Positions 9,782 to 50,254 of a stretch of DNA of 64,000 bases are shown here, piece by piece. Positions within the stretch are counted from its first letter, which is position 1. Every line of letters starts with the position of its first letter. The translations under genes were made by a program, and so were the position numbers. The stretch comes from a virus: positions 1 to 64,000 of the IMG/VR virus record IMGVR_UViG_3300032018_000001. One strand, 5' to 3'. Below the pieces are notes generated by a model. The model made no database searches. It saw only the letters and a program-made list of their open reading frames with translations, and was not told the DNA's origin.

Positions 9782-9961
9782 ATGAGTGCTAAAGTTCACA
9801 AACTTCTCAGAGTAGCATCCCGTGACCGCAGACACACGCAGCGTAGCCACCGTACTAAGCTTAAGCAATGGTGGCACAGCCTTACCAAAAAGGAACGATG
9901 GGCTGCACGTCTCAATATCCTGTCGATGCACCAAGCTGTAATAGGAAAAGCAACGAAATGA
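9782..9961 (+). CDS. Small very basic protein, 59 aa
   Basis: A 59-residue protein rich in arginine, lysine and histidine (VASRDRRHTQRSHRTKLKQW), starting after AGGAGAAAAAT. Such composition suggests nucleic acid binding, but no family is recognised. Its stop overlaps the ATG of the following HNH-like gene (ATGA). Confidence 0.6.
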   Translation: MSAKVHKLLRVASRDRRHTQRSHRTKLKQWWHSLTKKERWAARLNILSMHQAVIGKATK

Positions 9962-10578
9962 TTATGGGTAGACAACCTTTTAATCTTTTAGGTAAAGTGT
10001 TTGGCAAGTTGACAGTTATTGCTGGGCCTATTAGGAATTACAATGGGCGTCCCGCATGGCTTTGTCGATGCAACTGCACACACAGGACTGAATTTTTGGT
10101 AAGTTCTCAGCATTTGCTGCGTAGTGCTAGAGGTACTAAGTGTTGCAGGAAATGCTTTAGTATCAAGCACGGCTTTTCTGGTACTAGCTTGCATGCTATT
10201 TGGACTAAAATGCGTGACCGATGTAATAACAAAAACAACGCCAACTACTGTAATTATGGAGGCAGAGGCATCACAGTATGCAGTAGGTGGAATGACTTCA
10301 GAATTTTTATGCTTGATATGGGCAAGCGGCCCACAAGAAAGCATTCTGTTGACAGAATAAATAATAATGCAAATTACACGCCTGCTAATTGTCGCTGGGC
10401 TACCAGTAAGCAACAACAAAGGAACACAAGAAGAAATATCCATATATCTTATTCCGGAACAACGCTTACTTTTAGTGAGTTTGTTGAAAAGTATAAACTT
10501 AAATATGGAAAAGCATGGTATGGGTTTTCAAAAATGCGCAGTAGTCCTTCGGAATTAATACAGGAGTGTTCATTATGA
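9958..10578 (+). CDS. HNH-like homing endonuclease (YGGRGI/VCSRW family)
   Basis: A 206-residue endonuclease. The start is the ATG overlapping the upstream stop; the frame is open upstream but lies within that gene. An N-terminal cysteine cluster (CRCNC, then CCRKC) precedes the conserved YGGRGITVCSRW, MGKRPTRKHSVDRIN and NCRWAT motifs typical of a large group of phage HNH/AP2-associated endonucleases. A helix-turn-helix tail follows. Close relative of the gene at 53405. It ends in ATGA shared with the exonuclease start, so it sits exactly between two genes. Confidence 0.82.
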   Translation: MIMGRQPFNLLGKVFGKLTVIAGPIRNYNGRPAWLCRCNCTHRTEFLVSSQHLLRSARGTKCCRKCFSIKHGFSGTSLHAIWTKMRDRCNNKNNANYCNYGGRGITVCSRWNDFRIFMLDMGKRPTRKHSVDRINNNANYTPANCRWATSKQQQRNTRRNIHISYSGTTLTFSEFVEKYKLKYGKAWYGFSKMRSSPSELIQECSL

Positions 10579-12245: not shown

Positions 12246-12471
12246 CGGCACGCGCTCTAAGAGGCGCAGGCAGGTCTACGTTTTGATTTCTGAATACCCA
12301 AAGCGTTCAAGGGCGGATATTGCCAAGCTTGGACATCTCAGGCTGGCCAGTGTGTGCGGCCGGGTTAATGAGCTTATTGCGGCCGGTAAGGTCGTGGAGG
12401 TGGGCACTAAGGTTGATGAGGAGACACACAAGACGGTTGCTATTCTGGATTTAACCGCGGACACAAAATGA
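12205..12471 (+). CDS. Winged helix-turn-helix DNA-binding protein
   Basis: An 88-residue protein with a winged-helix pattern: a basic N-terminus, QVYVLISEYPKRSRADIAKLG (helix 1-2), a recognition helix near LASVCGRVNELIAAG and a wing (KVVEVGTKVDEETHKTVAILDL). This matches small phage winged-helix proteins. It may regulate transcription locally. It overlaps the preceding gene by 41 bases and the following HNH gene by ATGA. Confidence 0.65.
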   Translation: MQTKQKSLREITDDGTRSKRRRQVYVLISEYPKRSRADIAKLGHLRLASVCGRVNELIAAGKVVEVGTKVDEETHKTVAILDLTADTK

Positions 12472-13187
12472 AACGCTACGCTGATAGACTCCTTTTCTTT
12501 TTAAGTAAAGTATCCTACGGTAGTGACGGCTGCTGGTATGCTAAACCAGTATTACGATTTTTTGGTTCTTATTTCAGGTCAAAGACTCTTTCCTACAAGT
12601 TGCATCTTGGTAGAATTAAAAAAGGGTTATTCATTAGGAATAAATGCTTTAATACCTGCTGTATTAATCCTAAACATTTATATCTATCTGGTAGTAGGCA
12701 TTCAACTGTAAAAGACTTAATTGCTAGATTTTGGGCTAAGGTTGATAAGCACGGGCCTGATGCTTGTTGGCCCTGGCTGGCCAGTAAGGATGTTTGTGGG
12801 TACGGAACTATCGGGGAGGGTCACGGATTACTTGGTAATAAAAGAAGTACCAGGATACTTAAGGCTCACAGGTTGTCTTTAGAAATAAAACTAGGACGCT
12901 CTTTAAAACAAGGAATGCAAGCTCTGCATACTTGTGATAATCCTTCGTGTGTTAATCCTGAGCATTTATTTGAAGGAACGCAGCTTACTAATATAAAAGA
13001 TAGAGATACAAAAGGTAGAACGGCTAAAGGAATAATGCTTCCTCATGTGCTGACTGCCCGTGCTGTATTAAGGATACGCCGATTAAAGTATAAAGGTTTT
13101 ACTAATAAAAGAATAGGAGAGCTTGTTTCAGTAGATAGGCATTATGTATCTCAAATAGTAAATAGGAAAATATGGGGGCACATCTGA
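12468..13187 (+). CDS. HNH homing endonuclease, duplicated module
   Basis: A 239-residue relative of the gene at 538, again with two tandem HNH_3 modules. The first (residues about 1-80) has a weakened core (NKCFNTCCINPKHL). The second (about 83-180) is intact, with RFWAKVDKHGPDACWPWLA and HTCDNPSCVNPEHLFEGT. A C-terminal helix-turn-helix ends KIWGHI. The gene is AT-rich compared with neighbours. Its last codons overlap the ATG of the downstream glycosyltransferase-like gene by 16 bases. Confidence 0.85.
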   Translation: MKRYADRLLFFLSKVSYGSDGCWYAKPVLRFFGSYFRSKTLSYKLHLGRIKKGLFIRNKCFNTCCINPKHLYLSGSRHSTVKDLIARFWAKVDKHGPDACWPWLASKDVCGYGTIGEGHGLLGNKRSTRILKAHRLSLEIKLGRSLKQGMQALHTCDNPSCVNPEHLFEGTQLTNIKDRDTKGRTAKGIMLPHVLTARAVLRIRRLKYKGFTNKRIGELVSVDRHYVSQIVNRKIWGHI

Positions 13188-18478: not shown

Positions 18479-21400
18479 ATGGGAATAAGAAAACCAAAAA
18501 AACTGCCCGCGGAACCTAAACCTAAAAAGGAGAAGGTTCCCAAAGAGCCTAAGAAGCTGACCTGCCAAGAGTGTCCTAATTTTTCTTTCCACAAAGACAT
18601 TGATTACGGCGCAGACTACTACCGCGAGTCTTCTGTAGGCAAGGGTACTATTGCTTTCATCCTGTCTCCGATTGACTTCTACAATCTTGACAAGAGGCAG
18701 TGGAAGTATTCTCTGTACGCCGGGCTGATGGATTACAACGTGCTATTCCTTCCTTACCCTCAATGTGTGGAGAACGTGCTCCAGCCTGATAAGACTAAGG
18801 TTGCTATTCTGCGGGCGTGCAAGGACAATTTCATTCTCAAGTACCTGAAGGCCTATAGCATAGACCTGCTTGTGGTTTTCGATGATACAAAAATTCTGAT
18901 GGAGGTGGATGACGGCAAGGAGATAGACTTCTGCGGCAACTGGGAGACGTGGAATGATACGCAGGTGTATCTGGCAAAGGGTCTTTACAATCCTAACACC
19001 GGCGGATTCTGGTCTGAGAATTACCAGCACACCGTCCGAAAGATTCACAAGTTTTTCAATAAGGAATTAATCTGGCAGAAAAATCCTGATTTCAAAACGG
19101 TTACTACGATTGAGAAGCTGGAAGAGGTAATCAAGAAAATCAGCGAGCAGGACATGGTTGCGGTTGACGTTGAAACGTCCGGGCTGGATGTTCTGGCCAA
19201 GGATTTCAGACTGAAGACTATCGGCCTCTGCTGGGGCAAAGAAGCTGTCTGCATTGGTTATGAGGTGGAGGAGTGTCTTGACCTGAAGTACCAGTCCCGC
19301 GTGCGCGGGCTTATTGTCAGCCTGCTGGGTAACAAGGATATTGTCAAGGTCTGCCACAACCTCAAATTTGAAATGAAGGTTTTTATTCAGAAATTTTCTT
19401 TTCATGATTTTGATAATTGTGAAGACACCATGTTCCTGTCATACCTGTTCGATGAGAAGCGGGAATCTAATGGCTTGAAATATCTGGCCGGGGAGTATTG
19501 TGATGGATACGATAAGGTTGTCAAGGAGTTTGCGGACGCCCGGCTGGTTGACCTTTGGTTTTATAACTGCATGGATGCGTTCTTTACCTACTACCTCAGA
19601 GTAGTAGTATTTGACCTTGCATTGCTGGGTACGCTGAAGGATGGAATAAAATACGTTTACGAAAATGTCATGATTCCTGAGTGCTACGAGATAGCACGCA
19701 TGGAGCTGGACGGCGTGAACGTGGATTTTGATTATCTGGAAAAGCTCCGGGACGTTCTGAAGGATGAGGTTGAAGAGCTTAAAATAAAAATTGAGCATGA
19801 CTATCCTGATGTTAAGAAAGCCCGGCAGGAAAAAGAAGCTGCAGGAAAGGTACAGAAGACTTACATCTCGCCTAAGCAGCTGGCACACGTCCTATTTGAG
19901 GTTCTGAAGTATCCTACGATAAAGCCTACTAAGGGTAAGAATCCTACTCCCAGTGTGGACAAGGAAGTGCTGGTGACACTCAAAGAGCTGCACGGCTGTA
20001 AGCTGGCGGAGTTCCTGCTGGAGCTGCGTAAGAAAGAGAAGCAACTGTCTACCTATGTGATACCTTACCTTGAAGACCGGCCGAATATGTTTGAGGGTCG
20101 CGTGCGCTCCAGCTACTCTCAGGTGAAGAGCTATGACGCCGGGGAAGGACAGGCCAAGGGTACTGTCACCGGCCGTCTTTGTGTAGCAGGTAGTACGCTG
20201 CTTTATACAGACCGTGGAGTTTTTGAGATTAAAGATTTAATTGTGTCTAAACAAACAAAATATTATATTTTAACCCATACTGGGCGGTATCAAAAAATTA
20301 AAAATAAGTTCTATAAAGGCGAAGAGCTTATGTACCGTCTGACTTTGGATGATGGAAGATACTTGGATTGTACTTATCATCATCAGATTTTAACAAAGGA
20401 AGGGTGGGTTTATGCAGGAACAAGAAAGAAGGGTAATACCGTACTCTCCTACCTATATGACAGTGGAGAAGATAGAGAATATGCACGGAACCCGCGTGTT
20501 GACGGAAGATTCATTTCAGGAGATATTCATTTTACGGGGTTACAGTCGGACAGAATCAGTGAAGGTTTACGGGTCTTTGGGTTTAACAAATCACGTTGTA
20601 AACGATTCGCGTATTATTTATTCAGACAAATACGCAGAGCAGTTAAAGAAAATAAAACATTTGCATTATTCGCGGGCTCTGATGGGAAACACACACGGAA
20701 CAAAAGAGCGGCCGTCAATAGTAATACCGAAAGAGAAACTGGAGGATTTTATTGCGGTGGGGAAGACTACATGGAGAATTGCCACAGAGCTTGGGGTGAG
20801 CGATTTTATTGTGAGGAGCAACCTTACTTATCACGGCCTTCAGAACAGCACAGAGAACAAAAGGAATTTGACAGAATACGAAATGGGATTTTTGAAGAGA
20901 CTATCAGTATTCTCTCCGGATATTTTGGAAAGTGTGAAAAATTATTACGAAGACCCGGAGTGGTATTACAAAAGGCTGTATCGTTGTTTTTTGGAGACGT
21001 TGCAGATTCTCTGGTTTATTCAACGGCAGGGTCACAGCATCGAGTTTTTGAAGGAGCCGGGACGGGAGAAACGTGTGAGGATTCCGAAGAACGAAGTGTG
21101 TTGGTCTACAAACCGTTACGAAGCAATGCTGGCGATAGCACTACTGGATGCGAAGATTTCTCACTGCAGACAGTACATAATTTACGGGACGCACATGGTA
21201 GATTTCTTTTTTCCAAGTCAGAATCTTTGTGTGGAGGTGGACGGTGCTTACCACGAAACTCACGAGAGTACGAAAAAGAGCGACAAGGAAAAGGAACGCA
21301 TAATTCAGGAGAGGGGCTGGAAGCTGTTACGGCTTTCAACGGGGGAAGTGTTGAAGGATGTGGGGGTGTGCGTGCAGCGCATAAAGAAGCTACTATTGTT

Positions 21401-23698
21401 AGAATAGAAAAGTTGAAGAAGCAGGATGTGTGGGATATTGAGGTTGAAGCTGACCATACATACCTTGCTGGTGGTTTTGTAAACCACAATTCCAGTGCCG
21501 GGCCTAACCTGCAGAATATCAGCCGCGATAAAACAATCAAGAAAATATTTGTTCCTTCCGCGCCTAAGCGTGTATTCATTCAGTCTGACTTGTCTCAGGC
21601 AGAGCTCCGGATAGCAGCCTCTCTTGCTTTTGAGGAGAAGATGCTGAAGGTGTACAAGGAGGATGGAGACCTTCACACGCGCACCGGCCTGTTGATTGTG
21701 CCTAAGGTGCTATATGATAAGTTTGTGACCTCTGTGGGTAATCCTACTACGATTCAGCGCATGCTTGATATTGGAAAGCCTAACAAGGATGTGGGCGATA
21801 AAAAATTGCTGGGCGATATTCGCCAGAACGGAAAGCCCGGAAACTTTGGAATGATTTACGGCGGAACGTGGGCCGTGCTGCAGCGGATTGCAAAACAGAA
21901 TTACGGTCTTGACCTTACCAAGGAAGATGCAATGCACGCGCACGCGGCCTTCTTTGCTGAGTATAAGAATCTGGAAGCGTGGCATAATGAGACACACGCT
22001 TTCATTGCCAAGTACGGAATGTCTGTGTCTCCTATGGGCCGCGTGCGCCGGGTGCCTGAGGTATTTGTGTACCCGGTGGACTCAGAGCAGTATTCCGCGG
22101 CTCTGCGTGAAGCGCTCAATAGCATCGTACAAGGCATGTGCCTTCCGTCTAGTGAATATGTCTTTACACATAAGGGTTATTGTCAAATAGGCAGTCTTAT
22201 TAATAAGAAATTTAAAGTATGGGATGGAGAAAATTTTTCTAGGGCAAGAGTTGTAGACCGCGGAGAGTCCCGTATCGGAAGACTAAAATCCTACAGATGC
22301 CCAGAGTTAGAGTGTGATGATCGTCATGATGTTAAAGTTTTTGTTGGGAATGACCTTATTTGGAAAAGAGTAACTGATTTAGAGTTAGGCGATAAGGTGG
22401 CTGTTGCTTTACCAGAAGTAGCTGCCGGGGGTACTGGTTTTTATAAAAAATTCTACGGTAACGCTACAGGTTTTGGAGAGCGGGGTTTTGATTTTGTTTT
22501 TTCTACTTCTGATTTAGACACGGCTTATCTGTTGGGTTATTTTGTTGGTGATGGCTGTTTTGGTGTAGTACATGGTGCTAATACTCATTGGAAGGGGCGA
22601 TGGGGCACCGGGCGGCGACTTTCTTATTTCACAAATTTTGTTTTTAATTGCAAGGATAAAAGCAAATCGTTAAAGATAATTAGGCGTGCCCTAAAGAAGG
22701 CCTGTCCTAGTAGCTATAATCACAAATTAACGCTTAAAAGAAACAGGTTTGGCGGAAAATCCTGTTACTCGTTTTCAGCGCAGTACCACGCTTTGTACGA
22801 TATGCTTATCTGGCTTGGGTTTATTCCCAATTGTGGTGCTAAAAATAAGAGGATTGCACCTAAAATATTTAGCATGCCATTGGAATTTAGGAAGGCTTTT
22901 GTTAATGGCTTATTTGATTCTGACGGAACAAAGAGTAGCTATGTGTGTCCTGCATGGCATACTTCGTCTCCTGGTTTGGGAAAAGACATTTATCTGCTTT
23001 TACGCAGTCTTGGAATAATGTCAAACTTGTACGCTACTAAGGCTGGTAATTTTAAAGTAGATGTTATTTCTACCAGGGCGTTTGGGAAAGTAGTAGGCAG
23101 AGAGTTTAGTAGCAAGGAGACCGGTGAATTTGGAAAAACAATAATGCCACGTTATTGCGCTGCTGTGTTTTTGGACAAGATAAAAGGAACTTGCAATAAT
23201 CATCTTAGTTATTCTGAGCAAGTATTGATTAGTAGGGTTAGGCATGGCGGTTCTGTTTCTCTAGGAAAGGCTATTGACATATTGGATAAGTTGTTTGTGG
23301 ATAAAACAGGTTTATATATAGCAACTGAGTTTGAGTATTTTAAAATGACCAAACAGGTAGCGAAGGTTTATACCTTATCTGTTGATGATACTAAGCATCA
23401 ATATGACGCGGCCGGGTACTTGTCTAAGAATTGTGCGGACTTTCTGGGACAGGTCTGGGTTAGAGGCATGCGGGAAGTACGCAAAAGGAAACTTGACAAT
23501 GTTGTAAGGCTATCTGTCCATGATAGTATCGTGGGCGATTGTCTCAATAAAGATGTTGGTCTGGAAGTAGCGCACATCATGGGAGACGCTACTAAGTACT
23601 GGACAGAATTTCACTCTCAATACTGGCTGCAATGCCCTATGAAGATGGATAGTAGCATGGGCCCTCACTGGGGAGCACTAAAGGAGCTTGACGAATGA
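18479..23698 (+). CDS. DNA polymerase, family A, interrupted by two inteins
   Basis: Replicative polymerase precursor of 1739 residues; removing the two inteins leaves 871. A basic N-terminus (KKLPAEPKPKKEKVPK) and a cysteine pair (CQECP) are followed by a 3'-5' exonuclease domain with VDVETSGLD (D230, E232). The polymerase domain has TVTGR/SSAGPNLQNI split by intein 1, motif A SDLSQAELR (D1037), O-helix-like RQNGKPGNFGMIYGG, then NSIVQGM/CADFL split by intein 2, and motif C VHDS (D1682). No 5' nuclease domain is fused; that activity is the separate gene at 10575. The ATG lies 3 bases after a promoter box. Confidence 0.92.
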   Translation: MGIRKPKKLPAEPKPKKEKVPKEPKKLTCQECPNFSFHKDIDYGADYYRESSVGKGTIAFILSPIDFYNLDKRQWKYSLYAGLMDYNVLFLPYPQCVENVLQPDKTKVAILRACKDNFILKYLKAYSIDLLVVFDDTKILMEVDDGKEIDFCGNWETWNDTQVYLAKGLYNPNTGGFWSENYQHTVRKIHKFFNKELIWQKNPDFKTVTTIEKLEEVIKKISEQDMVAVDVETSGLDVLAKDFRLKTIGLCWGKEAVCIGYEVEECLDLKYQSRVRGLIVSLLGNKDIVKVCHNLKFEMKVFIQKFSFHDFDNCEDTMFLSYLFDEKRESNGLKYLAGEYCDGYDKVVKEFADARLVDLWFYNCMDAFFTYYLRVVVFDLALLGTLKDGIKYVYENVMIPECYEIARMELDGVNVDFDYLEKLRDVLKDEVEELKIKIEHDYPDVKKARQEKEAAGKVQKTYISPKQLAHVLFEVLKYPTIKPTKGKNPTPSVDKEVLVTLKELHGCKLAEFLLELRKKEKQLSTYVIPYLEDRPNMFEGRVRSSYSQVKSYDAGEGQAKGTVTGRLCVAGSTLLYTDRGVFEIKDLIVSKQTKYYILTHTGRYQKIKNKFYKGEELMYRLTLDDGRYLDCTYHHQILTKEGWVYAGTRKKGNTVLSYLYDSGEDREYARNPRVDGRFISGDIHFTGLQSDRISEGLRVFGFNKSRCKRFAYYLFRQIRRAVKENKTFALFAGSDGKHTRNKRAAVNSNTERETGGFYCGGEDYMENCHRAWGERFYCEEQPYLSRPSEQHREQKEFDRIRNGIFEETISILSGYFGKCEKLLRRPGVVLQKAVSLFFGDVADSLVYSTAGSQHRVFEGAGTGETCEDSEERSVLVYKPLRSNAGDSTTGCEDFSLQTVHNLRDAHGRFLFSKSESLCGGGRCLPRNSREYEKERQGKGTHNSGEGLEAVTAFNGGSVEGCGGVRAAHKEATIVRIEKLKKQDVWDIEVEADHTYLAGGFVNHNSSAGPNLQNISRDKTIKKIFVPSAPKRVFIQSDLSQAELRIAASLAFEEKMLKVYKEDGDLHTRTGLLIVPKVLYDKFVTSVGNPTTIQRMLDIGKPNKDVGDKKLLGDIRQNGKPGNFGMIYGGTWAVLQRIAKQNYGLDLTKEDAMHAHAAFFAEYKNLEAWHNETHAFIAKYGMSVSPMGRVRRVPEVFVYPVDSEQYSAALREALNSIVQGMCLPSSEYVFTHKGYCQIGSLINKKFKVWDGENFSRARVVDRGESRIGRLKSYRCPELECDDRHDVKVFVGNDLIWKRVTDLELGDKVAVALPEVAAGGTGFYKKFYGNATGFGERGFDFVFSTSDLDTAYLLGYFVGDGCFGVVHGANTHWKGRWGTGRRLSYFTNFVFNCKDKSKSLKIIRRALKKACPSSYNHKLTLKRNRFGGKSCYSFSAQYHALYDMLIWLGFIPNCGAKNKRIAPKIFSMPLEFRKAFVNGLFDSDGTKSSYVCPAWHTSSPGLGKDIYLLLRSLGIMSNLYATKAGNFKVDVISTRAFGKVVGREFSSKETGEFGKTIMPRYCAAVFLDKIKGTCNNHLSYSEQVLISRVRHGGSVSLGKAIDILDKLFVDKTGLYIATEFEYFKMTKQVAKVYTLSVDDTKHQYDAAGYLSKNCADFLGQVWVRGMREVRKRKLDNVVRLSVHDSIVGDCLNKDVGLEVAHIMGDATKYWTEFHSQYWLQCPMKMDSSMGPHWGALKELDE
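20180..21490 (+). mobile_element. Intein 1 of the DNA polymerase, with endonuclease in another frame
   Basis: A 437-residue intein (residues 568-1004) begins at Cys (CVAGSTLLYTDRGVFEIKDL, block A). It has block B DCTYHHQIL and ends with block F DVWDIEVEADHTYL and AGGFVNHN followed by Ser of the extein. It splits TGR/SSAGPNLQNI, a conserved polymerase motif, as active-site inteins do. Between blocks B and F the intein frame is long and open but reads like no known domain; the +1 frame there encodes a homing endonuclease (see 20412). Confidence 0.9.
20412..21407 (+). CDS. Vsr/DUF559-like homing endonuclease in alternate frame inside intein 1
   Basis: A 331-residue protein read in the +1 frame relative to the polymerase. 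Its ATG follows AGGAAGGG near the end of splicing block B and its stop lies just before block F, so it fills the usual endonuclease slot of the intein. The N-terminal half has helix-turn-helix-like repeats (KTTWRIATELGVSDFIVRSN). The C-terminal domain shows the PD-(D/E)XK pattern of DUF559/Vsr nucleases: NRYEAMLA, THMVDFFFPSQNL, CVEVDGAYH and RIIQERGWKLLRLS. It is probably translated independently and cuts intein-less alleles. Confidence 0.85.
   Translation: MQEQERRVIPYSPTYMTVEKIENMHGTRVLTEDSFQEIFILRGYSRTESVKVYGSLGLTNHVVNDSRIIYSDKYAEQLKKIKHLHYSRALMGNTHGTKERPSIVIPKEKLEDFIAVGKTTWRIATELGVSDFIVRSNLTYHGLQNSTENKRNLTEYEMGFLKRLSVFSPDILESVKNYYEDPEWYYKRLYRCFLETLQILWFIQRQGHSIEFLKEPGREKRVRIPKNEVCWSTNRYEAMLAIALLDAKISHCRQYIIYGTHMVDFFFPSQNLCVEVDGAYHETHESTKKSDKEKERIIQERGWKLLRLSTGEVLKDVGVCVQRIKKLLLLE
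22139..23431 (+). mobile_element. Intein 2 of the DNA polymerase (LAGLIDADG)
   Basis: A 431-residue intein (residues 1221-1651) begins at Cys (CLPSSEYVFTHKGYCQIGSL) and ends AAGYLSKN before a Cys extein residue. It splits NSIVQGM/CADFLGQVW of the polymerase domain. Two LAGLIDADG motifs are visible, LLGYFVGDG (about residue 1350) and FVNGLFDSDG (about 1474), so the homing endonuclease is in frame and looks intact. Block F is VYTLSVDDTKHQY. Confidence 0.92.
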
Positions 23699-23808
23699 AA
23701 ACAAATTACATACTTGCTATGGATAAGAGTCACGCTGAGGCTTGCGTGGCTGGTTTTAATGTAGACCCGGTAAATCTACAGAATAAAAGTTTCAGCACAG
23801 GAAGTTAG
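23695..23808 (+). CDS. Small hypothetical protein, 37 aa
   Basis: A 37-residue frame beginning MKTNYILAMDKSHAEACVAGF, coupled to the polymerase stop by ATGA. No family recognised. A promoter box follows its stop. Confidence 0.4.
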   Translation: MKTNYILAMDKSHAEACVAGFNVDPVNLQNKSFSTGS

Positions 23809-23816
23809 GATTTAAC

Positions 23817-23825
23817 CGTATTAAT
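23817..23825 (+). promoter_or_regulatory. Phage-specific promoter box (CGTATTAAT)
   Basis: CGTATTAAT followed by CTGGTAAGGAG, 20 bases before the ATG at 23846. It separates the polymerase unit from the recombination/SSB unit. Confidence 0.6.
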
Positions 23826-23845
23826 CTGGTAAGGAGAAAAACACA

Positions 23846-24340
23846 ATGGATGACTCACAAGTGATAGTAACGTATCCCAGTGCTAATGTTTTGAAGATTA
23901 CTACAATCATCGGCACGGAGAAGCGAGAGATTGACTTTCGTACAGAGCTCCGTATTAACACAGGTAATCTTGTTAAGGAGCTGTCTGAACAGCCCGGACA
24001 TTATGCTTGGTATTCGGCAATTCTAGCAGACCAAGAAGACCAAGCTCTGAGTAAGAAACGCGATATGGAAAGACGCCGCTCTGACCTTGCACTCCAGCTG
24101 AGGCAGGGTAAGCTTAAAATAAGTGATGCTTCCGGTGCTGCCATCAAGCTTACAGAGGGTGCTATACAGGATTACATTGAGAATGACAAGCTGATGAAAG
24201 CAATGCAGGATGAGCTTTTTACGCTGGAGTCGTACTGCAAGAAGTTCAAGATTCTGGTTGCCGCAAGCGTACAGCGTAAAGACATGTTGGTCAACCTAGG
24301 GTTGCTTGAACGTCAGGAAAGAAAACAATTTAATTCGTAG
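23846..24340 (+). CDS. Possible recombination mediator (UvsY-like), helical protein
   Basis: A 164-residue protein with a short beta N-terminus, then a long helical region (YAWYSAILADQEDQALSKKRD...) and a C-terminal helix ending RKDMLVNLGLLERQE. T4 UvsY has a comparable helical layout with a YSKW segment, and this gene sits directly before SSB and the UvsX-like recombinase. No residue-level match to UvsY is claimed; the assignment is by layout and neighbours. A good AAGGAG ribosome binding site precedes it. Confidence 0.5.
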   Translation: MDDSQVIVTYPSANVLKITTIIGTEKREIDFRTELRINTGNLVKELSEQPGHYAWYSAILADQEDQALSKKRDMERRRSDLALQLRQGKLKISDASGAAIKLTEGAIQDYIENDKLMKAMQDELFTLESYCKKFKILVAASVQRKDMLVNLGLLERQERKQFNS

Positions 24341-25734: not shown

Positions 25735-28125
25735 ATGGCAAAGAATAAATCGGTTAAAGAAGAATTATATGAGTCACTGGAGAAAGACAAGACGGTGATT
25801 CTGGGCCTGGATGCAAAAATTCCCTACTTTGTAAATTCCGGACATTACGGATTGAACAGGGTACTATCCGGACGCTGGCTGGGCGGATGGTCTGCAGGCA
25901 CTGTCGGTGAAATGTTCGGAGACCCTTCTTGTCTGGTTGCTGGTACTCGTGTTGTTTTAGCGGACGGCAGTATTGTTTCCATAGATAGTCTTGGAAATAA
26001 ACACTTACAGCATATTGATGTTCTTATGCAGAAGGGTAACGGGGATAATGCTGTTGCTAAAGTTTTTCATAAGTATGAAAAGCAGAATGTCACAGAGATT
26101 ATTTTAAGTGATGGTTCTCGCGTTACAGGTACGCATAATCACCCTTTGCTGACTACCGCTGGTTGGATGACCATTGACGAGTTGCAATTAGGTGATACGC
26201 TTATGACTACAAGTTTTATTCCTTGTCATATCACCGATTACATAAAAACAGGCTTTGTGGTGGAACAATCGCATCTTGGGCCTCGGTATAACGGAAAAAT
26301 GCCGCAGGTCGTTGATGAAGAGCTTGCTTCAGTAATGGGATATGTTCTTGGTGACGGTTGGGTAAGAAAGAAAGGTGTAGGTTTTTTGGTTAATCCTGAT
26401 GAAATTGACATACTCGGTAAATTGTTAGTTTACATGGACAACCTTTTTGGTGTTGCCGCTCACACGCAAGTCAGGGTTGGCAAGGACCATTATTACGAAG
26501 GTAAGTTGTTTAAAAGTAAAAAGGCGCTTACGTCAGTAGAGTATTCAAGAAATGCTGTGACTAAAGCTTTGGGCTTTCTGTCAGAAAAAAGAATTCCTGA
26601 TTTAATTATGCGCTCTGGAAATTCAATTATGAGCAGTTTTCTCAGGTGGTTATTTGAAGCTGCCGGTTGTTGCTTTAGCAAGGGTCGTGGATCACGAGCT
26701 GTTGCTTTGAAAACCGCATACTTGGATTTAGCTTTGGATGTACAACTTGCTTTGCGCCGTTTTGGAATAAGAGCGAGAATAATCAAGTGGACAAACAGCG
26801 CAGGGCGCATATCTTATAATATTCGTATAGGCAGCAGGGATAATATTTTGTTATTTGATAAGTACATAGGTTTTGTATCAAACAAAAAAATAATAAAACT
26901 GCAGCAGCTCGTATCAGACGTAAACAAAATGCGAAAACCGCGAGATTCTAAACCAGAAACTGTTGTGGCAATTAACAGGCTTAGTAAGCAGCAGGATGTT
27001 TTTGACATAGAGATTCCAGAAGGCCACCAGTTTGTTGCTAATGGTATTATTAGTCATAATACTGGAAAAAGTCTTTTAACCAGTCGAGCGATGGTATCAC
27101 TGCAGCGCAAGGAAATTTATATCAACGAAGGCTGCGAGAAGGAAGTGGATTTGACGGACACCTTCATCATCCTAGATGATACGGAAAAAGCATACCAGGA
27201 AAAATTCTGTAAGATGCAAGGTATGGACATTAACGACCTTATCAAGCTTCACAAAACATTGACCGTTGAAACGCACTTTACGCAGATGGAAGACAAGGTG
27301 AATAAAATACGCGCTCTCACCAAGCAGGCTCCTCTCGGTGTTTTCTGCGATTCCATTTCTCAGCTTTCTACAGACAACGAAATGGAAAAGGGTATGGAGA
27401 CTACGGACATGGGTAACAAAGCCAAGAAGGTGCATCAAGCAATGCGCCTGTATTCCGATTACATTTATTCCAATATGGTCATGTATCTGGCCAATAGTCA
27501 TGTTACGGATAGTCCTAACCCTTACGGGCCTAAGCGCGTTATTAAGGGCGGAAAAGGCATGGCTTTTCAGTCCACAGTGAGGCTGGATTTGCGCTACCTT
27601 AGTAAATTCATTCGTAACATGATGGATACTTCTGAGGTGGGCGAGCGCGGGGAAACTTACGGCGTGAAGATTCTGGCTGAGACGGTAAAAAACCGCGTTG
27701 CTCCTCCTTTCATGTTCACAATCATTGACGTGTACTTTGACCGTGGCATTGACCCATACTCCGGGCTGTTTGACCACTTCACACGCACGGGCCAGATTAT
27801 GCTTAAGCCTGCGGATAAAAAGAAAAAGGAAAAAGAGAAGGAGAAGGAGCCCGAAGAAAAAGGAAAGAAGAAAAAGAAAAAGAAGATTGACCCGGATTCT
27901 ATTTACCTTTTTGACGGCAAGCATGAATTCAAGCACGCCGAATTGCCTCAGCTGATTATAGCTCAGGATTTGCTGGGCGTTAAGGCTGCTGGTTTTGAAT
28001 ACATGACTCCGATAGATGCCGGTGAGTTGGTAGAGGAAGACCTGGAGGAAGACGATAAGGACTTTCCCACGGCCGCGCCTCCGCCGCTTCCTCCTGTTCC
28101 GCGCCGTGAACCTATGGGAGAATGA
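25735..28125 (+). CDS. RecA/UvsX-like recombinase, interrupted by an intein in the P-loop
   Basis: A 796-residue precursor; without the intein the recombinase is 419 residues. The Walker A reads GDPS/TGKS, split exactly by the intein. The RecA core continues with APLGVFCDSISQLS (Walker B area) and KGGKGMAFQSTVRLDL. A lysine/glutamate-rich linker (from about residue 695) and a C-terminal proline-rich acidic tail end the protein. It catalyses strand exchange for recombination-dependent replication with SSB and the mediator upstream. AAGGAG precedes the ATG. Confidence 0.9.
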   Translation: MAKNKSVKEELYESLEKDKTVILGLDAKIPYFVNSGHYGLNRVLSGRWLGGWSAGTVGEMFGDPSCLVAGTRVVLADGSIVSIDSLGNKHLQHIDVLMQKGNGDNAVAKVFHKYEKQNVTEIILSDGSRVTGTHNHPLLTTAGWMTIDELQLGDTLMTTSFIPCHITDYIKTGFVVEQSHLGPRYNGKMPQVVDEELASVMGYVLGDGWVRKKGVGFLVNPDEIDILGKLLVYMDNLFGVAAHTQVRVGKDHYYEGKLFKSKKALTSVEYSRNAVTKALGFLSEKRIPDLIMRSGNSIMSSFLRWLFEAAGCCFSKGRGSRAVALKTAYLDLALDVQLALRRFGIRARIIKWTNSAGRISYNIRIGSRDNILLFDKYIGFVSNKKIIKLQQLVSDVNKMRKPRDSKPETVVAINRLSKQQDVFDIEIPEGHQFVANGIISHNTGKSLLTSRAMVSLQRKEIYINEGCEKEVDLTDTFIILDDTEKAYQEKFCKMQGMDINDLIKLHKTLTVETHFTQMEDKVNKIRALTKQAPLGVFCDSISQLSTDNEMEKGMETTDMGNKAKKVHQAMRLYSDYIYSNMVMYLANSHVTDSPNPYGPKRVIKGGKGMAFQSTVRLDLRYLSKFIRNMMDTSEVGERGETYGVKILAETVKNRVAPPFMFTIIDVYFDRGIDPYSGLFDHFTRTGQIMLKPADKKKKEKEKEKEPEEKGKKKKKKKIDPDSIYLFDGKHEFKHAELPQLIIAQDLLGVKAAGFEYMTPIDAGELVEEDLEEDDKDFPTAAPPPLPPVPRREPMGE
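25930..27060 (+). mobile_element. RecA intein (LAGLIDADG)
   Basis: A 377-residue intein (residues 66-442) begins CLVAGTRVVLADGSIVSIDSL. It has block B VTGTHNHPLLT and ends DVFDIEIPEGHQF and ANGIISHN followed by Thr of the P-loop. One clear LAGLIDADG motif is VMGYVLGDG (about residue 200); the second, FLRWLFEAAGC (about residue 302), is divergent. Splicing must occur for the recombinase to bind ATP. Confidence 0.92.
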
Positions 28126-31300: not shown

Positions 31301-31530
31301 AAGAACAGTATAACTTAATTGCGATTCCATTTTCTCTTGTGGCGCTAGATGAGCTAATTTCTGAGCTGGATGCCGGTGGAATAGAGGCAATGAGTTCTTT
31401 GATTAGCGGTATGGCCAAAGATTGTGCAGTTTACGTGATAACACACCTGGATAATTTTAAAAACTTGTTTTCTAATCATGTTACTGTGGACTACACAAAA
31501 GAAAAAGGTACAATAATAGCGTATGTTTAA
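28360..31530 (+). CDS. Mre11-Rad50 (SbcD-SbcC, gp47-gp46) fusion nuclease
   Basis: A single 1056-residue protein joins both halves of the recombination nuclease. Residues 1-330 are a metallophosphoesterase (Mre11) with FSDPHANN (D17, H19), SGDLFHTF, VGQHD, MGHQM and FGDIHKP. After a linker, the Rad50 ATPase starts with Walker A GSNGFGKT (378-385). Coiled coils flank a zinc hook CSLC (701-704), and the second half has the signature LSGGQKARI (960-968) and Walker B ALDE (D997, E998). In T4 and most phages these are two genes. It processes ends for recombination. The ATG sits directly after a promoter box. Confidence 0.92.
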   Translation: MKRNSKSGAAKATVFSDPHANNFQRFAKIKNGFNSRLLDVIRALRFINTYNEENAIDTTLLSGDLFHTFSFVENDVMNLVNEVLSNWYGQLYYIVGQHDLKTKADKYDERLASSLVFRNNKTIHLLQGGIKYTLPNGTTLFGMGWQDPKNFYEQEFESADIFMGHQMIDNPDIPKGMRLHKDWIEKNGYKLLIFGDIHKPDFRKYDGYNVLIPGAPLQHNFGDAGQDRGFWTVDLDTYDADFIPINTTPKFIKVQSAAELKSGDDFNFYRVEKPADVDTTGMNVAVRKEVKQAFRESGLSVAMSDEELLTKYLELKTDKNETKQDVFLQTGLKYLKECVSSAVTPKDYVIKKVEIHNFVSMLGKHTFTFVKDIFLILGSNGFGKTTLFEALYWCLFGVTTKGLAAGEVVNDTVNEDCSVIVTLEGSKDTITVHRYRKDKDFGNAFFFNIYAGSTDAQEQGSVYQIKRESTDATQEELNRMLGTNASFFKNVNYFSQEAFEFFSTLTDAGQKAICKNLMQIDRFEKAEDKVKFEAAILDNSYSKQEQQLSSDKAVLIEKEQTLKSLRSQEIIWESQHKEDLVKRAEQLKGLQARSEKINRNIEVLSAEKEDLEKQKAGIELAIPVYVDAYAAVVVELTQAIATADGNRSSGRKEYFDELKRLNTNKEKLNKDLYSIEADLSQVSNRLDELKEQVTASDSALCSLCGQKLPPFKISEIRERLQQEYSQKTALLPGMNKTKEILQSNIQNTVELIAQLETKNNFDKQDQAVRLLQARKDTVTVQQTAAKQLHDNAVNQAKLVYQEKTHEMDTQLVNLSSELAVLLRDKATCEHDYGAYLLELKAQTEVANPFSVEIKNHEALQTQMRLGIVAREEELQRLYAEQEIHQFWRVAFSNQGIISYLLDNFSLRFTIIINDILLDLTDGHYSSLLSTQKKLKNKDEYREQFEFKIFIDGKERTYKALSGGQKARINLATVATLHKIIQEQYNLIAIPFSLVALDELISELDAGGIEAMSSLISGMAKDCAVYVITHLDNFKNLFSNHVTVDYTKEKGTIIAYV

Positions 31531-32179
31531 TTGCAGACGGTGCGGGTATTCTTGGTTGCCTAGAAAGACTAATCCTAAATACTGTCCGTTATGCAGTAGT
31601 ATCTGTTGGCGCACACATAAGAAAAAACCACTAGGGCACCTGTTGGTACTTAGACGGTGGCGAAAACGAAATAGGAAGCGTTACCTTGAGCTTCAAAGAA
31701 AAAGCTCGGCTATTTTTAGAAAAAAGCATCCGGATAGGGTTAAGAAAGCACTTGCTGATTATAAAAGTAAAAATTATGATAAAATCATCAGGCATAGCAG
31801 GGAGTACTGGAAAATTTATTATAAAAATAATAGACAAAAAGTGCTTATTAAGAATAAGCAATACCGCGTTAAAAATAAAATTCTTTATAAGATAAGAAAC
31901 AATATATACACTGCTATAAAAAGAGAGCTAGGTTTTAAACAAAGCAGCACTGTAGTACTGCTAGGTTGTTCTGTGCAGGTTTTTAAAGACTACATTGCGC
32001 GGCAGTTTAAGCGTGGTATGTCTTGGCATAATCACGGAAAGTGGCATTTAGACCACATTAAGCCCTGTGTTTCTTTTGACTTGACTAAGCTATCAGAGCA
32101 AAGAAAGTGTTTTCACTACTCTAATTACCAACCTTTGTGGGCCAAAGATAATCTTATTAAAAATAAAAGGTCAGCATGA
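31523..32179 (+). CDS. HNH endonuclease with N-terminal zinc ribbon
   Basis: A 218-residue, AT-rich, lysine/tyrosine-rich gene that starts inside the Mre11-Rad50 3' end. CRRCG and CPLC form an N-terminal zinc ribbon. A long basic helical region follows, then the HNH core WHLDHIKPCVSF and HYSNYQPLWAKDNLIKNKR. It resembles free-standing homing endonucleases of the WHLDHI family seen in phages. It overlaps the next gene by ATGA. Confidence 0.82.
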   Translation: MFNCRRCGYSWLPRKTNPKYCPLCSSICWRTHKKKPLGHLLVLRRWRKRNRKRYLELQRKSSAIFRKKHPDRVKKALADYKSKNYDKIIRHSREYWKIYYKNNRQKVLIKNKQYRVKNKILYKIRNNIYTAIKRELGFKQSSTVVLLGCSVQVFKDYIARQFKRGMSWHNHGKWHLDHIKPCVSFDLTKLSEQRKCFHYSNYQPLWAKDNLIKNKRSA

Positions 32180-45841: not shown

Positions 45842-46197
45842 GTTTTGTAAAGATAGAAGACAGTTGCGCTATTCTTAGATTTTCCAATACCAGCACACCT
45901 GAGCACCGTGATGTTCTCATGGATGTAAGTGCTCTAATGCAGTTTGGTTTTAAGTGTTTCATTTTCGACTTTTCAGGAGTCAAAAATTTTAGTTCCAGTG
46001 TTTTAGGTTTTGCTCTTGGCTTGATTCGCGTTGTAAAAGGAAACGGCTGTAAGATGTATGTCAGAAATCTCAGCGAAGAGGCCCGGACAATGCTTCAATT
46101 CTCTGTCAAGGTAGAATGCTGCAATGATGAATTGCACGAGCTGCTATCCTTGGAAAATATTCAGAGCATTGAATTAGGAGGAAGCGATGGCCATTGA
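45838..46197 (+). CDS. STAS-domain protein (anti-sigma antagonist-like)
   Basis: A 119-residue STAS domain. The core FKCFIFDFSGVKNFSSSVLGF and GLIRVVKGNGCKMYVRNLS matches the strand-helix pattern of SpoIIAA-type proteins, including a serine triad near residue 57 where host kinases phosphorylate. In bacteria such proteins switch anti-sigma factors. In a phage it may modulate host sigma factors or simply be structural. It overlaps the fibre gene by 11 bases. Confidence 0.68.
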   Translation: MSFVKIEDSCAILRFSNTSTPEHRDVLMDVSALMQFGFKCFIFDFSGVKNFSSSVLGFALGLIRVVKGNGCKMYVRNLSEEARTMLQFSVKVECCNDELHELLSLENIQSIELGGSDGH

Positions 46198-49100
46198 TAC
46201 TGCCAGAGTATTAAGTGTATTGCAGGCACTGCTTGCAGATAACATGCAGAAGAAAATAAAGGCCCAGCAGGTCAGAGATTTTCTTGTTTCTGTTTACGGT
46301 CGCTGGGCATCAAAAACTATCATCTCTGCTGATAGTCCATATTCCATCACCAAAGATGATGTGGCGCTTTACATTGATGCTACTGTGGATAATACCACAG
46401 CTCTGCTACCGAATGATTTTGTTCAAAATGACAACGACATAATTATTTACATCGAGAGAACTGACCTCAGCATTAAAAATGTCACTGTTGCTTGTCAAGC
46501 GGGATATACCATAGCGCAAAACGGTACAAGCATTAAGTTAGATAGACAGGGTGCTCATGTTCTCCTGCACAAACTGGGAACGGTTTACCATATTGTCGTT
46601 GATGGCCGGGTAGGTTTTTCTGTAACAAATCCCGTTCAGAATGACGTGCTTGCTTACGATAGCATTAGCAAGCAGTTTATCAATGTTCCTAATCCTGGCG
46701 GCGGGACGCAGGGACAACAGGGTGTTACCGGAATTCAAGGCCAGACCGGTGTGCAGGGAAAAACAGGCCCACAAGGTCAGCAGGGGCATACCGGCCTGGG
46801 CGCTCCTGGTATTCAAGGTCAGACCGGCATGCAAGGTACTACAGGTGCCCGTGGAATCCAAGGTAATACAGGCCTGCAGGGCTTAACCGGAGTGGTCGGC
46901 GTTCAAGGACAGACCGGCCTCCAAGGCATGACAGGAGCAGAAGGCGAAGATGGTGTCACCGGCGTTCAGGGCGTAACAGGCCCTGTAGGTCAGACCGGAG
47001 TGCAAGGAAATACTGGAGTCCAAGGTATGCAAGGACATACCGGCATGCAAGGACTTGGCATACAAGGTCAGACCGGCTTACAAGGGCATACTGGCATTCA
47101 GGGTATCAAAGGTAATACGGGCGCACAAGGCGTTCGTGGCGATACAGGTGTCCAGGGTAAGCAGGGTACTACTGGCATAGGTGTTCAAGGCAATACGGGT
47201 GTTCAAGGCCGCACAGGCGTTCAAGGAAATACCGGAATAGGTATTCAAGGTGAGACAGGCGTACAAGGTCAAACTGGGCCTTTTGGCGGGCCTCCTGGTG
47301 AGACTGGTGTGCAAGGTACGACAGGCGTGGCCGGTGCTCGCGGTATAACCGGAATACAAGGCCTTCAAGGAACAGAAGGTGCTACAGGCCCTCAAGGAAA
47401 TCGCGGTGTGACCGGCGTTCAAGGCCAGACCGGTGTGCAAGGTGTACAGGGACAAACTGGTATTCAGGGTCATACTGGTGCACAGGGTAGAACAGGAGTC
47501 CAAGGCGATACCGGTGTGGCAGGAGAAACCGGCATACAGGGTATTGAAGGGCACGAAGGGGTGCAAGGAAATACCGGTGTGCAGGGAATTCAAGGCAACA
47601 CTGGAGTTCAAGGCAACACAGGAGTCCAAGGCGATACCGGCGCTCAAGGGGGCACAGGTTTACGTGGTAATACCGGCGTACAAGGTAATACTGGCATCCA
47701 GGGTGCTACCGGCGTACAAGGTAATACTGGCATCCAAGGAGTTCAAGGCCAAACCGGTGTACAAGGTAGCATTGGTGTGCAGGGTAGTACTGGTGTGCAG
47801 GGATTTCAAGGAAACACAGGTTTACAGGGTAATACTGGTGTTCAAGGAATCCAAGGTAATACTGGCCAAGGTTTACAAGGTAATACTGGCGTGCAAGGTT
47901 TACAGGGTAATACTGGCGTGCAAGGAATCCAAGGTAATACTGGCGTGCAAGGTTTACAGGGTAATACGGGCGTGCAAGGCAACACCGGAGTTCAAGGAAA
48001 CACTGGTGTCCAGGGTGCTACCGGAGTTCAAGGTCAAACTGGTGTCCAGGGTCAGACTGGTTTACGCGGTAATACAGGTGTTCAAGGAAATACTGGTTTA
48101 CAGGGAATCCAAGGCAACACCGGCGTACAAGGTACTCAGGGTAATACTGGCATCCAAGGTAATACCGGCGTAGCAGGAAGTACGGGCGTACAGGGCGTTC
48201 AGGGTGTTACAGGCCTTCAGGGTTTTGGTGGCGGCGCTACATTATTTTTTGATGACGCAGCCTCTGACATCGGTGGCTATTTTTCATTATTGACAGACCC
48301 TAACACAATAGCCGAAGTTCAAGATGATATTTTTGTTAATTCAGGAACTGGAGAGGTTTTTGGAGAATCGTACGCAACAGCTGCAGGTTTTCCTGGACGC
48401 ACGGTTATTCCTGGAGGTGACTGGGAGTTTGACATTTGGCGTTTTGTTAGCAGTGCTACTGGAGTTACAATACTTAACATTAATGTTTACAAGAGGGCTA
48501 CAGGCGGGGCTGAAACACTTCTTTTTGTTGCTACTACCGGTAAAATAAATGACACTACTAACACAATGCAGAACATTACAGTTACGCAACCTGATTTTGT
48601 TGTTTTAGCTACTGACAGAATAGTAATAAAAATATCTGCTACTTCTACTTCTGGTGCTACAAGAACAGCAAGCCTTACTCATAACGGTACTTTACATTAT
48701 TCACATGTGCATACAACTCTTGCTGTTGTGGGCTCGCAGGGTATTACGGGTATTCAAGGTCAAACTGGTGTCCAGGGTCAGACTGGTTTACGCGGTAATA
48801 CAGGTGTTCAAGGTATACAAGGCAACACGGGCGCAGGCATACAAGGCAGCACTGGCGTGCAAGGTATCCAGGGCCAAACTGGCATGCAAGGAAACACTGG
48901 AGTTCAAGGTAATACCGGAGTACAAGGCAGCACAGGTTTACAAGGTAATACCGGCACTCAAGGAATTCAAGGTAACACTGGTGTGCAAGGAATTCAAGGT
49001 AACACTGGTGTGCAAGGTATCCAAGGTAACACAGGTTTACAGGGCAATACTGGTGTGCAAGGTATCCAAGGCAATACTGGTGTGCAAGGAATTCAAGGTA

Positions 49101-50254
49101 ACACTGGAGTCCAAGGTCAAACTGGTGTTCAAGGCAACACAGGTTTACAGGGCAACACTGGAGTTCAGGGTAATACCGGAGTACAGGGCAATACAGGTTT
49201 ACAAGGTAATACTGGCGTACAAGGTAGCACCGGCGTGCAGGGTAGCACAGGTGTTCAGGGAAATACAGGTGTGCAGGGTATCCAGGGCAACACTGGTGTG
49301 CAGGGTATCCAGGGGAATACCGGTGTACAAGGAAGCCAAGGTAATACCGGCGTGCAGGGAATCCAAGGTCAGACTGGAACAGGAATACAAGGCCAAACCG
49401 GCGTGCAAGGAAGTCAAGGCAACACAGGTTTACAAGGTAATACCGGTACTCAAGGAATTCAGGGTATTACCGGAGGGACTATAGGTACACAAGGAAATAC
49501 TGGCGTTCAAGGAATCCAAGGAAATACTGGCGTTCAAGGAATCCAAGGAAATACCGGCGTGCAGGGAATTCAGGGTATTACTGGATTGTGGGGAAGAACA
49601 GGCGTGCAGGGAATTCAGGGTATTACTGGATTGTGGGGAAGAACAGGCGTGCAGGGAATTCAGGGTATTACCGGCGTGCAGGGCATTCAAGGCAATACAG
49701 GCGCAGGCATACAAGGCAGTACGGGTGTGCAGGGAATCCAAGGCATTACGGGAATCCAGGGTCAGACCGGTATACAAGGCATTACGGGTTTACGCGGCAA
49801 CACTGGCGTACAAGGCAATACTGGTGTACAAGGAGTTACTGGTTCCGCTGGAAATATAACACCAGCTGTGGGCTCTAATCTGTCCGGGTCAGGAACACAG
49901 TTTCCAGCAACAGCCGGTGAAACCTTTGCGGCCGGTGAACTGTCTTATTTTAAAAATGACGGAAATTACTACAAGGCTAAAGCGGATGTTATTTCCACCA
50001 TGCCGGTAGTATCTATTGCCGCGGCAGCAATAAATGCTTCAGCATCAGGCAACATGCAAGCTGTAGGATTTTATAGAAATGATGCGTGGAGCTGGACGGT
50101 GGCTGGTTTACTTTATGCTTCTGATACTACCGCAGGAGCAATAACACAAACTGCCCCCTCAGGCTCAGGAAATATTGTGCAGATAGTAGGCTATGCTTAT
50201 TCTGCTACTGTAATTTATTTTAATCCTGACCCTACATACATCACTCTTGTGTAG
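46187..50254 (+). CDS. Collagen-like tail fibre protein
   Basis: A 1355-residue structural protein. Residues 1-170 form a non-repetitive head domain. Residues about 171-683 and 850-1222 are Gly-X-Y collagen-like repeats dominated by GNTGVQG, GQTGVQG and GIQGNTG. A 165-residue beta-rich non-collagen domain (about 684-850, with GGDWEFDIWRF) interrupts them. A C-terminal domain of about 130 residues (from NITPAVGSNL) follows. Trimeric collagen-like fibres bind hosts. AGGAGGAAG precedes the ATG. Confidence 0.88.
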   Translation: MAIDTARVLSVLQALLADNMQKKIKAQQVRDFLVSVYGRWASKTIISADSPYSITKDDVALYIDATVDNTTALLPNDFVQNDNDIIIYIERTDLSIKNVTVACQAGYTIAQNGTSIKLDRQGAHVLLHKLGTVYHIVVDGRVGFSVTNPVQNDVLAYDSISKQFINVPNPGGGTQGQQGVTGIQGQTGVQGKTGPQGQQGHTGLGAPGIQGQTGMQGTTGARGIQGNTGLQGLTGVVGVQGQTGLQGMTGAEGEDGVTGVQGVTGPVGQTGVQGNTGVQGMQGHTGMQGLGIQGQTGLQGHTGIQGIKGNTGAQGVRGDTGVQGKQGTTGIGVQGNTGVQGRTGVQGNTGIGIQGETGVQGQTGPFGGPPGETGVQGTTGVAGARGITGIQGLQGTEGATGPQGNRGVTGVQGQTGVQGVQGQTGIQGHTGAQGRTGVQGDTGVAGETGIQGIEGHEGVQGNTGVQGIQGNTGVQGNTGVQGDTGAQGGTGLRGNTGVQGNTGIQGATGVQGNTGIQGVQGQTGVQGSIGVQGSTGVQGFQGNTGLQGNTGVQGIQGNTGQGLQGNTGVQGLQGNTGVQGIQGNTGVQGLQGNTGVQGNTGVQGNTGVQGATGVQGQTGVQGQTGLRGNTGVQGNTGLQGIQGNTGVQGTQGNTGIQGNTGVAGSTGVQGVQGVTGLQGFGGGATLFFDDAASDIGGYFSLLTDPNTIAEVQDDIFVNSGTGEVFGESYATAAGFPGRTVIPGGDWEFDIWRFVSSATGVTILNINVYKRATGGAETLLFVATTGKINDTTNTMQNITVTQPDFVVLATDRIVIKISATSTSGATRTASLTHNGTLHYSHVHTTLAVVGSQGITGIQGQTGVQGQTGLRGNTGVQGIQGNTGAGIQGSTGVQGIQGQTGMQGNTGVQGNTGVQGSTGLQGNTGTQGIQGNTGVQGIQGNTGVQGIQGNTGLQGNTGVQGIQGNTGVQGIQGNTGVQGQTGVQGNTGLQGNTGVQGNTGVQGNTGLQGNTGVQGSTGVQGSTGVQGNTGVQGIQGNTGVQGIQGNTGVQGSQGNTGVQGIQGQTGTGIQGQTGVQGSQGNTGLQGNTGTQGIQGITGGTIGTQGNTGVQGIQGNTGVQGIQGNTGVQGIQGITGLWGRTGVQGIQGITGLWGRTGVQGIQGITGVQGIQGNTGAGIQGSTGVQGIQGITGIQGQTGIQGITGLRGNTGVQGNTGVQGVTGSAGNITPAVGSNLSGSGTQFPATAGETFAAGELSYFKNDGNYYKAKADVISTMPVVSIAAAAINASASGNMQAVGFYRNDAWSWTVAGLLYASDTTAGAITQTAPSGSGNIVQIVGYAYSATVIYFNPDPTYITLV
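46700..48231 (+). repeat. Collagen-like repeat block 1
   Basis: About 510 codons of Gly-X-Y with many near-identical 9-, 18- and 27-base DNA units such as GGTAATACTGG and GTGCAAGG. These reflect internal expansion by recombination and slippage. Confidence 0.85.
48736..49852 (+). repeat. Collagen-like repeat block 2
   Basis: About 372 codons of the same GNTGVQG-type repeats, with exact long duplications (for example GGATTGTGGGGAAGAACAGG at two sites 45 bases apart, from about 49582). Confidence 0.85.

Follow-up and report, generated by a model that had tools for sequence, protein, structure and literature searches.

Can an intein carry its homing endonuclease as a gene of its own, read in another frame? 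Intein endonucleases are usually described as in-frame domains, and surveys translate the host frame only. The question is raised by a phage DNA polymerase gene in a window of 64,000 nucleotides (the whole stretch of DNA analysed), which comes from within an IMG/VR virus record of 141,806 bases. The initial annotation of this window had placed an intein in the polymerase and, nested within the intein, a 331-residue nuclease ORF in the +1 frame; the coordinates of both (Table 1), the frame and the length all held. The polymerase contains a second intein, which provides a conventional example in the same gene.

Table 1. Features of the polymerase gene, its inteins and the nested nuclease gene (window positions)
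Feature	Position	Strand	Evidence
Family A DNA polymerase ORF (3'-5' exonuclease and polymerase), 1739 aa, two inteins	18479..23698	+	Pfam DNA_pol_A 4e-43, DNA_pol_A_exo1 7e-15; ORF call
Intein 1, 437 codons, 0 stops	20180..21490	+	Insertion site between TGRL and SSAGPNLQN of the polymerase
N-terminal Hint half (~residues 1-92)	20180..20455	+	AlphaFold pLDDT 91-97 at residues 1-90; alignment with mini-intein L011
Shine-Dalgarno-like AAGGAAGG	20396..20403	+	8 nt 5' of the nested ATG, within Hint coding sequence
Nested +1-frame ORF, 331 aa and stop (ATG...TAG), DUF559/EDxHD homing endonuclease-like	20412..21407	+	ORF call, Pfam, structure matches
Intein-frame stretch over the nuclease gene: open, without conservation as protein, largely disordered by prediction	20456..21376	+	pLDDT, stop avoidance
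DUF559 catalytic domain of the nested nuclease, residues 251-327 (VDF...VEVDGxYH...K...GWxLLR)	21162..21392	+	Pfam best stretch; 3r3p by sequence and fold
C-terminal Hint part (~residues 400-437)	21377..21490	+	pLDDT 89-97 at residues 401-437; TIGR01443 match
Intein 2, 431 aa, conventional, LAGLIDADG endonuclease in frame	22139..23431	+	LAGLIDADG_3 7.7e-9 at polymerase ORF residues 1469-1530

Splicing blocks A, B and F had been reported as intact in the polymerase frame, and this was confirmed by Pfam and TIGR matches and by the conserved residues. Intein 1 lies between two extein halves and has the Hint nucleophile at position 1 (C1), the block B TxxH (T65xxH68), block F (D419), the C-terminal HN (H436-N437) and, of the C, S or T expected at +1, a Ser. 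The catalytic Hint columns were invariant across an alignment of 14 related inteins. Pfam Intein_splicing matched the intein 1 frame with E=2e-7, and with 2e-10 when the whole ORF was scanned; the isolated intein scored 31.3, under the Pfam cut-off of 35.8, and the whole ORF scored 41.2, above it. TIGR01445 and TIGR01443 both matched the intein 1 frame, which was thus recognised by intein models at both ends. In the AlphaFold model of the intein-frame product, pLDDT was ~90-97 at residues 1-90 and 400-437 and <50 for most of residues 96-396, and Foldseek searches with this model returned the Ssp DnaB, gp41-1 and Mtu RecA mini-inteins (E~1e-6). The models and the Foldseek results suggest that the intein 1 frame encodes a Hint domain split by a stretch, probably disordered, that merely shadows the nuclease gene. 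As all Hint features are present, we class the element as an intein of a non-canonical type with an EDxHD homing-endonuclease-like gene; that it splices is an inference.

The nested ORF had been described as a Vsr/DUF559-like endonuclease with its own ATG and ribosome binding site. When the two frames were searched separately, as the initial annotation had proposed, DUF559 was found in the nuclease frame (E=6e-11) and Intein_splicing in the intein frame, with no Pfam nuclease match in the intein frame across the insert. The top PDB match by sequence (phmmer) was the homing endonuclease I-Bth0305I (3r3p, E=0.0048), which was also the top Foldseek match of the nuclease AlphaFold model (probability 1.00, TM 0.72 normalised to the target). 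This model was made from a two-sequence alignment and has a mean pLDDT of 57.5, being reliable only in its C-terminal third (pLDDT ~65-86). The nuclease has a DUF559/EDxHD catalytic core with an intact acidic/His motif, and its DF and VEVDGxxH residues are kept in the homologue from contig L111. Both the ATG and a Shine-Dalgarno-like site were confirmed, the latter being weaker than in many relatives. A canonical intein has its endonuclease in the reading frame of the Hint domain, and intein 1 does not meet this definition, its nuclease being in the +1 frame. Structured Hint sequence is overlapped by only ~25 codons, at the two ends of the nested ORF; the last codons and stop of the nuclease overlap the first strand of the C-terminal Hint part.

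We next asked how both frames are held open. An intein-frame stop arises where a nuclease codon ending in T precedes AA, AG or GA. T was found at 0/65 such boundaries in the nested nuclease and at 77/184 elsewhere (Fisher p=3e-13). In 2000 synonymous codon shuffles of the nuclease, intein-frame stops averaged 17.6 with a minimum of 8, compared to none observed; on repetition the mean was 17.4 and the minimum again 8. The initial annotation had estimated 15-16 stops by chance, which is about right. The corresponding frame of other window genes has a mean of 27.6 stops per 331-codon segment (minimum 8), and the third frame has 37 stops across intein 1; across the nuclease ORF it has 26, roughly as the shuffles predict. 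In all 17 pairs of nested nucleases compared, the amino-acid identity of the nuclease frame exceeded that of the intein frame, and differences were commonest at nuclease codon position 3. This pattern of identities and codon positions indicates that one frame of the overlap codes for a conserved nuclease and the other for no more than an open spacer. The stretch had been read as dual-coding, and a comparison of codon substitution across relatives had been suggested; the reading is supported with an amendment. Selection keeps the intein frame open, this much being shown by the sequence, and only the nuclease frame is conserved, so the dual coding is lopsided.

To see whether the arrangement recurs, IMG/VR was scanned with a PolA profile and then with HNH proteins and Hint halves. 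Every IMG/VR relative is a metagenomic or draft contig, and the terminase cases described below supply the named phages. Three nuclease homologues (L111/L281, L282 and L283) were recovered via the polymerase/intein profile and then via the L111 nuclease. All are full-length, lie in the +1 frame of PolA inteins and leave the intein frame open. They share 26-31% identity with the window nuclease and 56-59% among themselves; full-length BLASTP of the window nuclease against that of L111 gave 118 bits. Direct searches were less productive: no close relatives of the nuclease were found in viral contigs, and in phages only weak domain matches were obtained at E<=10. A scan of genome contigs with the nuclease pair returned only the generic DUF559 domain, with nothing window-like among 26 loci inspected by frame length, a few high-GC loci among them having other frames open. 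One contig returned by the polymerase search (L002) was a false lead. The Hint tree was too weakly resolved to tell one from two origins of DUF559 nesting.

An unrelated nuclease, HNH_3, was found in the +1 frame of ~22 other PolA-intein contigs (including L036, L044 and L088). The nearest relatives (L011, L012) carry a 132-residue mini-intein without a nuclease at the same site, and two further relatives (L013, L014) are intein-free. In one contig (L058) the HNH nuclease has decayed and the intein frame is still open. A search for an in-frame ancestor showed that inteins with HNH in frame also occur in the same polA region (L004, L006, L007), but these look like other HNH variants. As a separate observation, PolA of the intein-free relatives is present as two ORFs (L013 5989-6904, L014 1986-2907), the first ending in TGA and the second starting from a nearby ATG. 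The break falls shortly past the intein site and before the motif DLSQAELR, apparently a naturally split polymerase.

Nested nucleases are not confined to PolA. HNH ORFs were found in the +2 frame of further phage ORFs, and those checked with Pfam (L160, L180, L205) are terminase large subunits with Hint domains. The same arrangement was found in the terL Hint inteins of Tetrasphaera phage TJE1 (L277 1089-3275), Acinetobacter phage Highwayman (L278 999-3281) and Rhodobacteraceae phage LS06-2018-MD07 (L280 1041-3089), whose records annotate terL but omit the nested HNH. One terminase (L189) has its nested HNH in the +1 frame. An HNH ORF in +1 was also seen within a 1633-aa phage ORF for DnaE (DNA polymerase III alpha; L193 1402-6300); the Hint match there is weak and positioned after the HNH region, and the layout may differ from that of the PolA cases. 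We also noted a terminase large subunit (L171 617-3676) with apparently three inteins, the last one with an HNH ORF in the +2 frame.

When the 25 loci with HNH in +1 were pooled, a stop-creating T was found at 0/965 boundaries vs 768/2640 elsewhere, and the 4730 codons held no host-frame stop, compared to 353 stops in the third frame. The 23 pooled +2 loci gave 0 host-frame stops in 4609 codons and 400 in the third frame. The pooled loci were chosen for an open host frame, so that the zero stops are partly by construction, and the single-locus shuffle tests are the fair measure. These ranged from P<0.0005 to 0.3. Among the terminases, Highwayman gave P0<0.001, TJE1 P0=0.23 and MD07 P0=0.30; the open frame alone is thus not significant everywhere. 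Shine-Dalgarno motifs of 4-7 nt preceded the ATG, GTG or TTG of nearly all nested ORFs examined, within the N-terminal Hint coding sequence, though one (L092) has no good motif at its ATG. The reading in the initial annotation needs a second amendment: out-of-frame nesting is not an isolated case and recurs in dozens of other phage genes. Nested-nuclease inteins form a widespread class with two nuclease families, at least PolA and terminase as host genes and probably DnaE as a third.

These results suggest how the element may work. Intein 1 is likely to be a mini-intein whose homing endonuclease has a gene of its own, overlapping that of the intein. Sequence and prediction show the two frames, the Hint domain, the fold of the nuclease, the avoidance of stops, the Shine-Dalgarno sites and the recurrence; that the intein splices, that the nuclease is translated, what it cuts and that it homes are inferences. 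The polymerase mRNA would be translated twice. Ribosomes in the polymerase frame would produce the full precursor, from which the Hint domain (the first ~92 and last ~38 residues) would splice out the intein together with a ~300-residue spacer, a mere other-frame reading of the nuclease. Internal initiation at AAGGAAGG and the ATG would yield a free 331-aa DUF559/EDxHD endonuclease with its I-Bth0305I-like catalytic domain at the C-terminus; the Shine-Dalgarno motifs at nested starts indicate such initiation on the host mRNA. The nuclease would then cut intein-less polA near the conserved TGRLSSxxPN motif, a target inferred from the position of the insert alone, and repair would copy intein and nuclease into the cut allele. 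The mini-intein of L011 and the decayed HNH of L058 are consistent with such a homing cycle, which allows loss of the endonuclease with splicing retained.

Several known systems resemble parts of this arrangement. The ShiLan domain and the Pacc40 gp60 insertion are out-of-frame HNH sequences in phage DNA methylases (Arsenault et al. 2025, PMC11855218). As in the window, a homing endonuclease gene lies in another frame of a phage gene whose own frame is stop-free, and homing was proposed (PMC11855218). The ShiLan insert, however, has no intein or intron splicing domains and no detectable RBS, and is thought to remain in the protein (PMC11855218), whereas the window nuclease is of the EDxHD/DUF559 type, has a Shine-Dalgarno site and is surrounded by a complete Hint domain. 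Intein 1 therefore meets one feature of the ShiLan type, an out-of-frame endonuclease ORF in an open host gene, but not the other, the absence of a splicing domain round the insert. Canonical LAGLIDADG and HNH inteins (intein 2 of the polymerase; L004, L006, L007) likewise have a Hint domain split by an endonuclease at the usual position, but in them Hint domain and endonuclease form one polypeptide, whereas in intein 1 it would be a separate protein from an overlapping gene. The third comparison is with group I introns. Those found at the same polA motif in Leptolyngbya phage Dor1 and phage PhAPEC7 carry HNH ORFs related to the nested ones, suggesting that separately carried endonucleases target this motif and that the carrier can be removed as RNA or as protein. 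I-Bth0305I (EDxHD, PDB 3r3p) and these intron HNH enzymes have the same catalytic folds as the nested nucleases and are likewise encoded by a separate ORF in a self-removing element; the HNH enzymes of Dor1 and PhAPEC7 also share the polA motif of the inteins. Unlike the intron systems, intein 1 has a carrier that would be spliced as protein, and hence the host frame must stay open across the ORF.

We also looked for earlier descriptions. Full-text searches for out-of-frame endonucleases in inteins, in a literature that excluded 10.1101/2025.01.02.630785 and Gorbalenya 1998, turned up only PMC11855218 and PMC12613952 and nothing closer than ShiLan; a keyword look in an earlier mycobacteriophage intein survey (PMC5050341) found no mention of nested frames. 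Gorbalenya 1998 is titled 'Non-canonical inteins'. A 2025 preprint by Gosselin, Arsenault and Gogarten (10.1101/2025.01.02.630785) concerns a 'non-canonical architecture' of actinobacteriophage inteins and is cited by PMC11855218, also for frequent overlapping frames. Judged by its title and this citation, it may cover out-of-frame endonucleases in inteins, and novelty is uncertain.

Four other explanations were considered. The one that survives best, though we think it unlikely, is that the nested nuclease is active but has a main role other than homing of intein 1: it would act, free-standing, on rival phages (marker exclusion), and the intein would only carry it, harmlessly. Free-standing homing endonuclease genes and the exclusion of rivals are well known in T-even-like phages, and an independent gene could be expressed apart from the intein. 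Against this, the nuclease is inside an intein in all four DUF559 loci (the window and the three homologues), and its HNH counterparts keep to one polA motif, whether they lie in inteins or in introns. Homing and exclusion require the same cut, and hence are not mutually exclusive.

We consider it very unlikely that ribosomes enter the nuclease frame through a programmed frameshift, which would yield an N-intein-nuclease fusion, instead of initiating internally. In its favour, the nested frame of the window is open a few codons 5' of the ATG (the last stop is at 20391), and L111 has only GTG start candidates near its nuclease domain. However, nearly every nested ORF has a Shine-Dalgarno motif and a start codon, located in the same part of Hint, and a protein made by frameshifting would be a dead-end piece of polymerase without the C-terminal portion of the Hint domain.

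A sequencing or assembly frameshift, or a recently frameshifted and dead in-frame intein endonuclease, can be all but excluded. Most described intein endonucleases are in frame, and in-frame HNH is found at the same polA region (L004, L006, L007). A single shift, however, would leave stops beyond it in one frame, and here both are open over 331 codons with significant stop avoidance (p=3e-13). The initial annotation had named two observations that would refute its reading, homologues with the endonuclease in frame and stops in the intein frame of relatives. No relative was found in which this nuclease shares the frame of the two Hint halves, all three homologues also being in +1, which argues against an error; no intein-frame stops were found in any relative examined, including L058 with its decayed nuclease. 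The +1 phase recurs in 4 DUF559 and ~22 HNH PolA inteins, and +2 in terminase inteins of cultured phages.

It has some support that the insert could be a self-splicing intron encoding its endonuclease, the intein signature being incidental: HNH relatives occupy group I introns at this polA motif, and the nearest solved structure, I-Bth0305I, is an intron endonuclease. The proposal was nevertheless rejected with near certainty. Rfam detected no catalytic core of a group I or II intron in window 19000-24000, nor any intron in L092, L111, L098 and L143, while detecting the group I introns of the positive controls L101 and L102. Moreover, the Hint catalytic residues do not vary among 14 inteins, and no stop interrupts the frame.

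We therefore prefer the reading of intein 1 as a mini-intein with an overlapping, separately translated nuclease gene, which probably copies the insert into other phages, although this is inferred. In a bolder version, towards which the evidence leans without settling it, there is a widespread undescribed class of phage inteins whose homing endonuclease is a separately translated overlapping gene. EDxHD/DUF559 and HNH_3 nucleases, which are unrelated, would each have become inserted out of frame into mini-inteins of one and the same kind, in PolA (+1), terminase (+1, +2) and probably DnaE (+1), and selection would keep open a spacer that is spliced away. If this is true, intron-style homing endonuclease genes can ride on protein-splicing elements, and an overlapping gene can become affordable through protein splicing, which removes the unwanted translation. 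Surveys confined to the host frame would count such inteins as endonuclease-free or odd, and if nested out-of-frame endonucleases are common, estimates of mobile inteins are wrong. Nested inteins would also amount to a natural, repeated experiment in gene overlap.

Further observations were made on the rest of the window. A UvsX-like recombinase ORF (25735-28125) seems to hold an intein, with a Hint-like start CLVAGTRVVLADGS and an in-frame LAGLIDADG-like GYVLGDGWV. Counting this apparent case and the two in PolA, the phage has three inteins in replication and recombination genes. Free-standing ORFs at 9868-10578, 12468-13187, 31523-32179 and 53405-54043 resemble HNH-type homing endonucleases, by eye only, and the phage genome seems rich in homing elements. 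Finally, a 1355-aa ORF (46187-50254) has long collagen-like GxTGxQG repeats, and several glycosyltransferase-like ORFs are found in the same genome.
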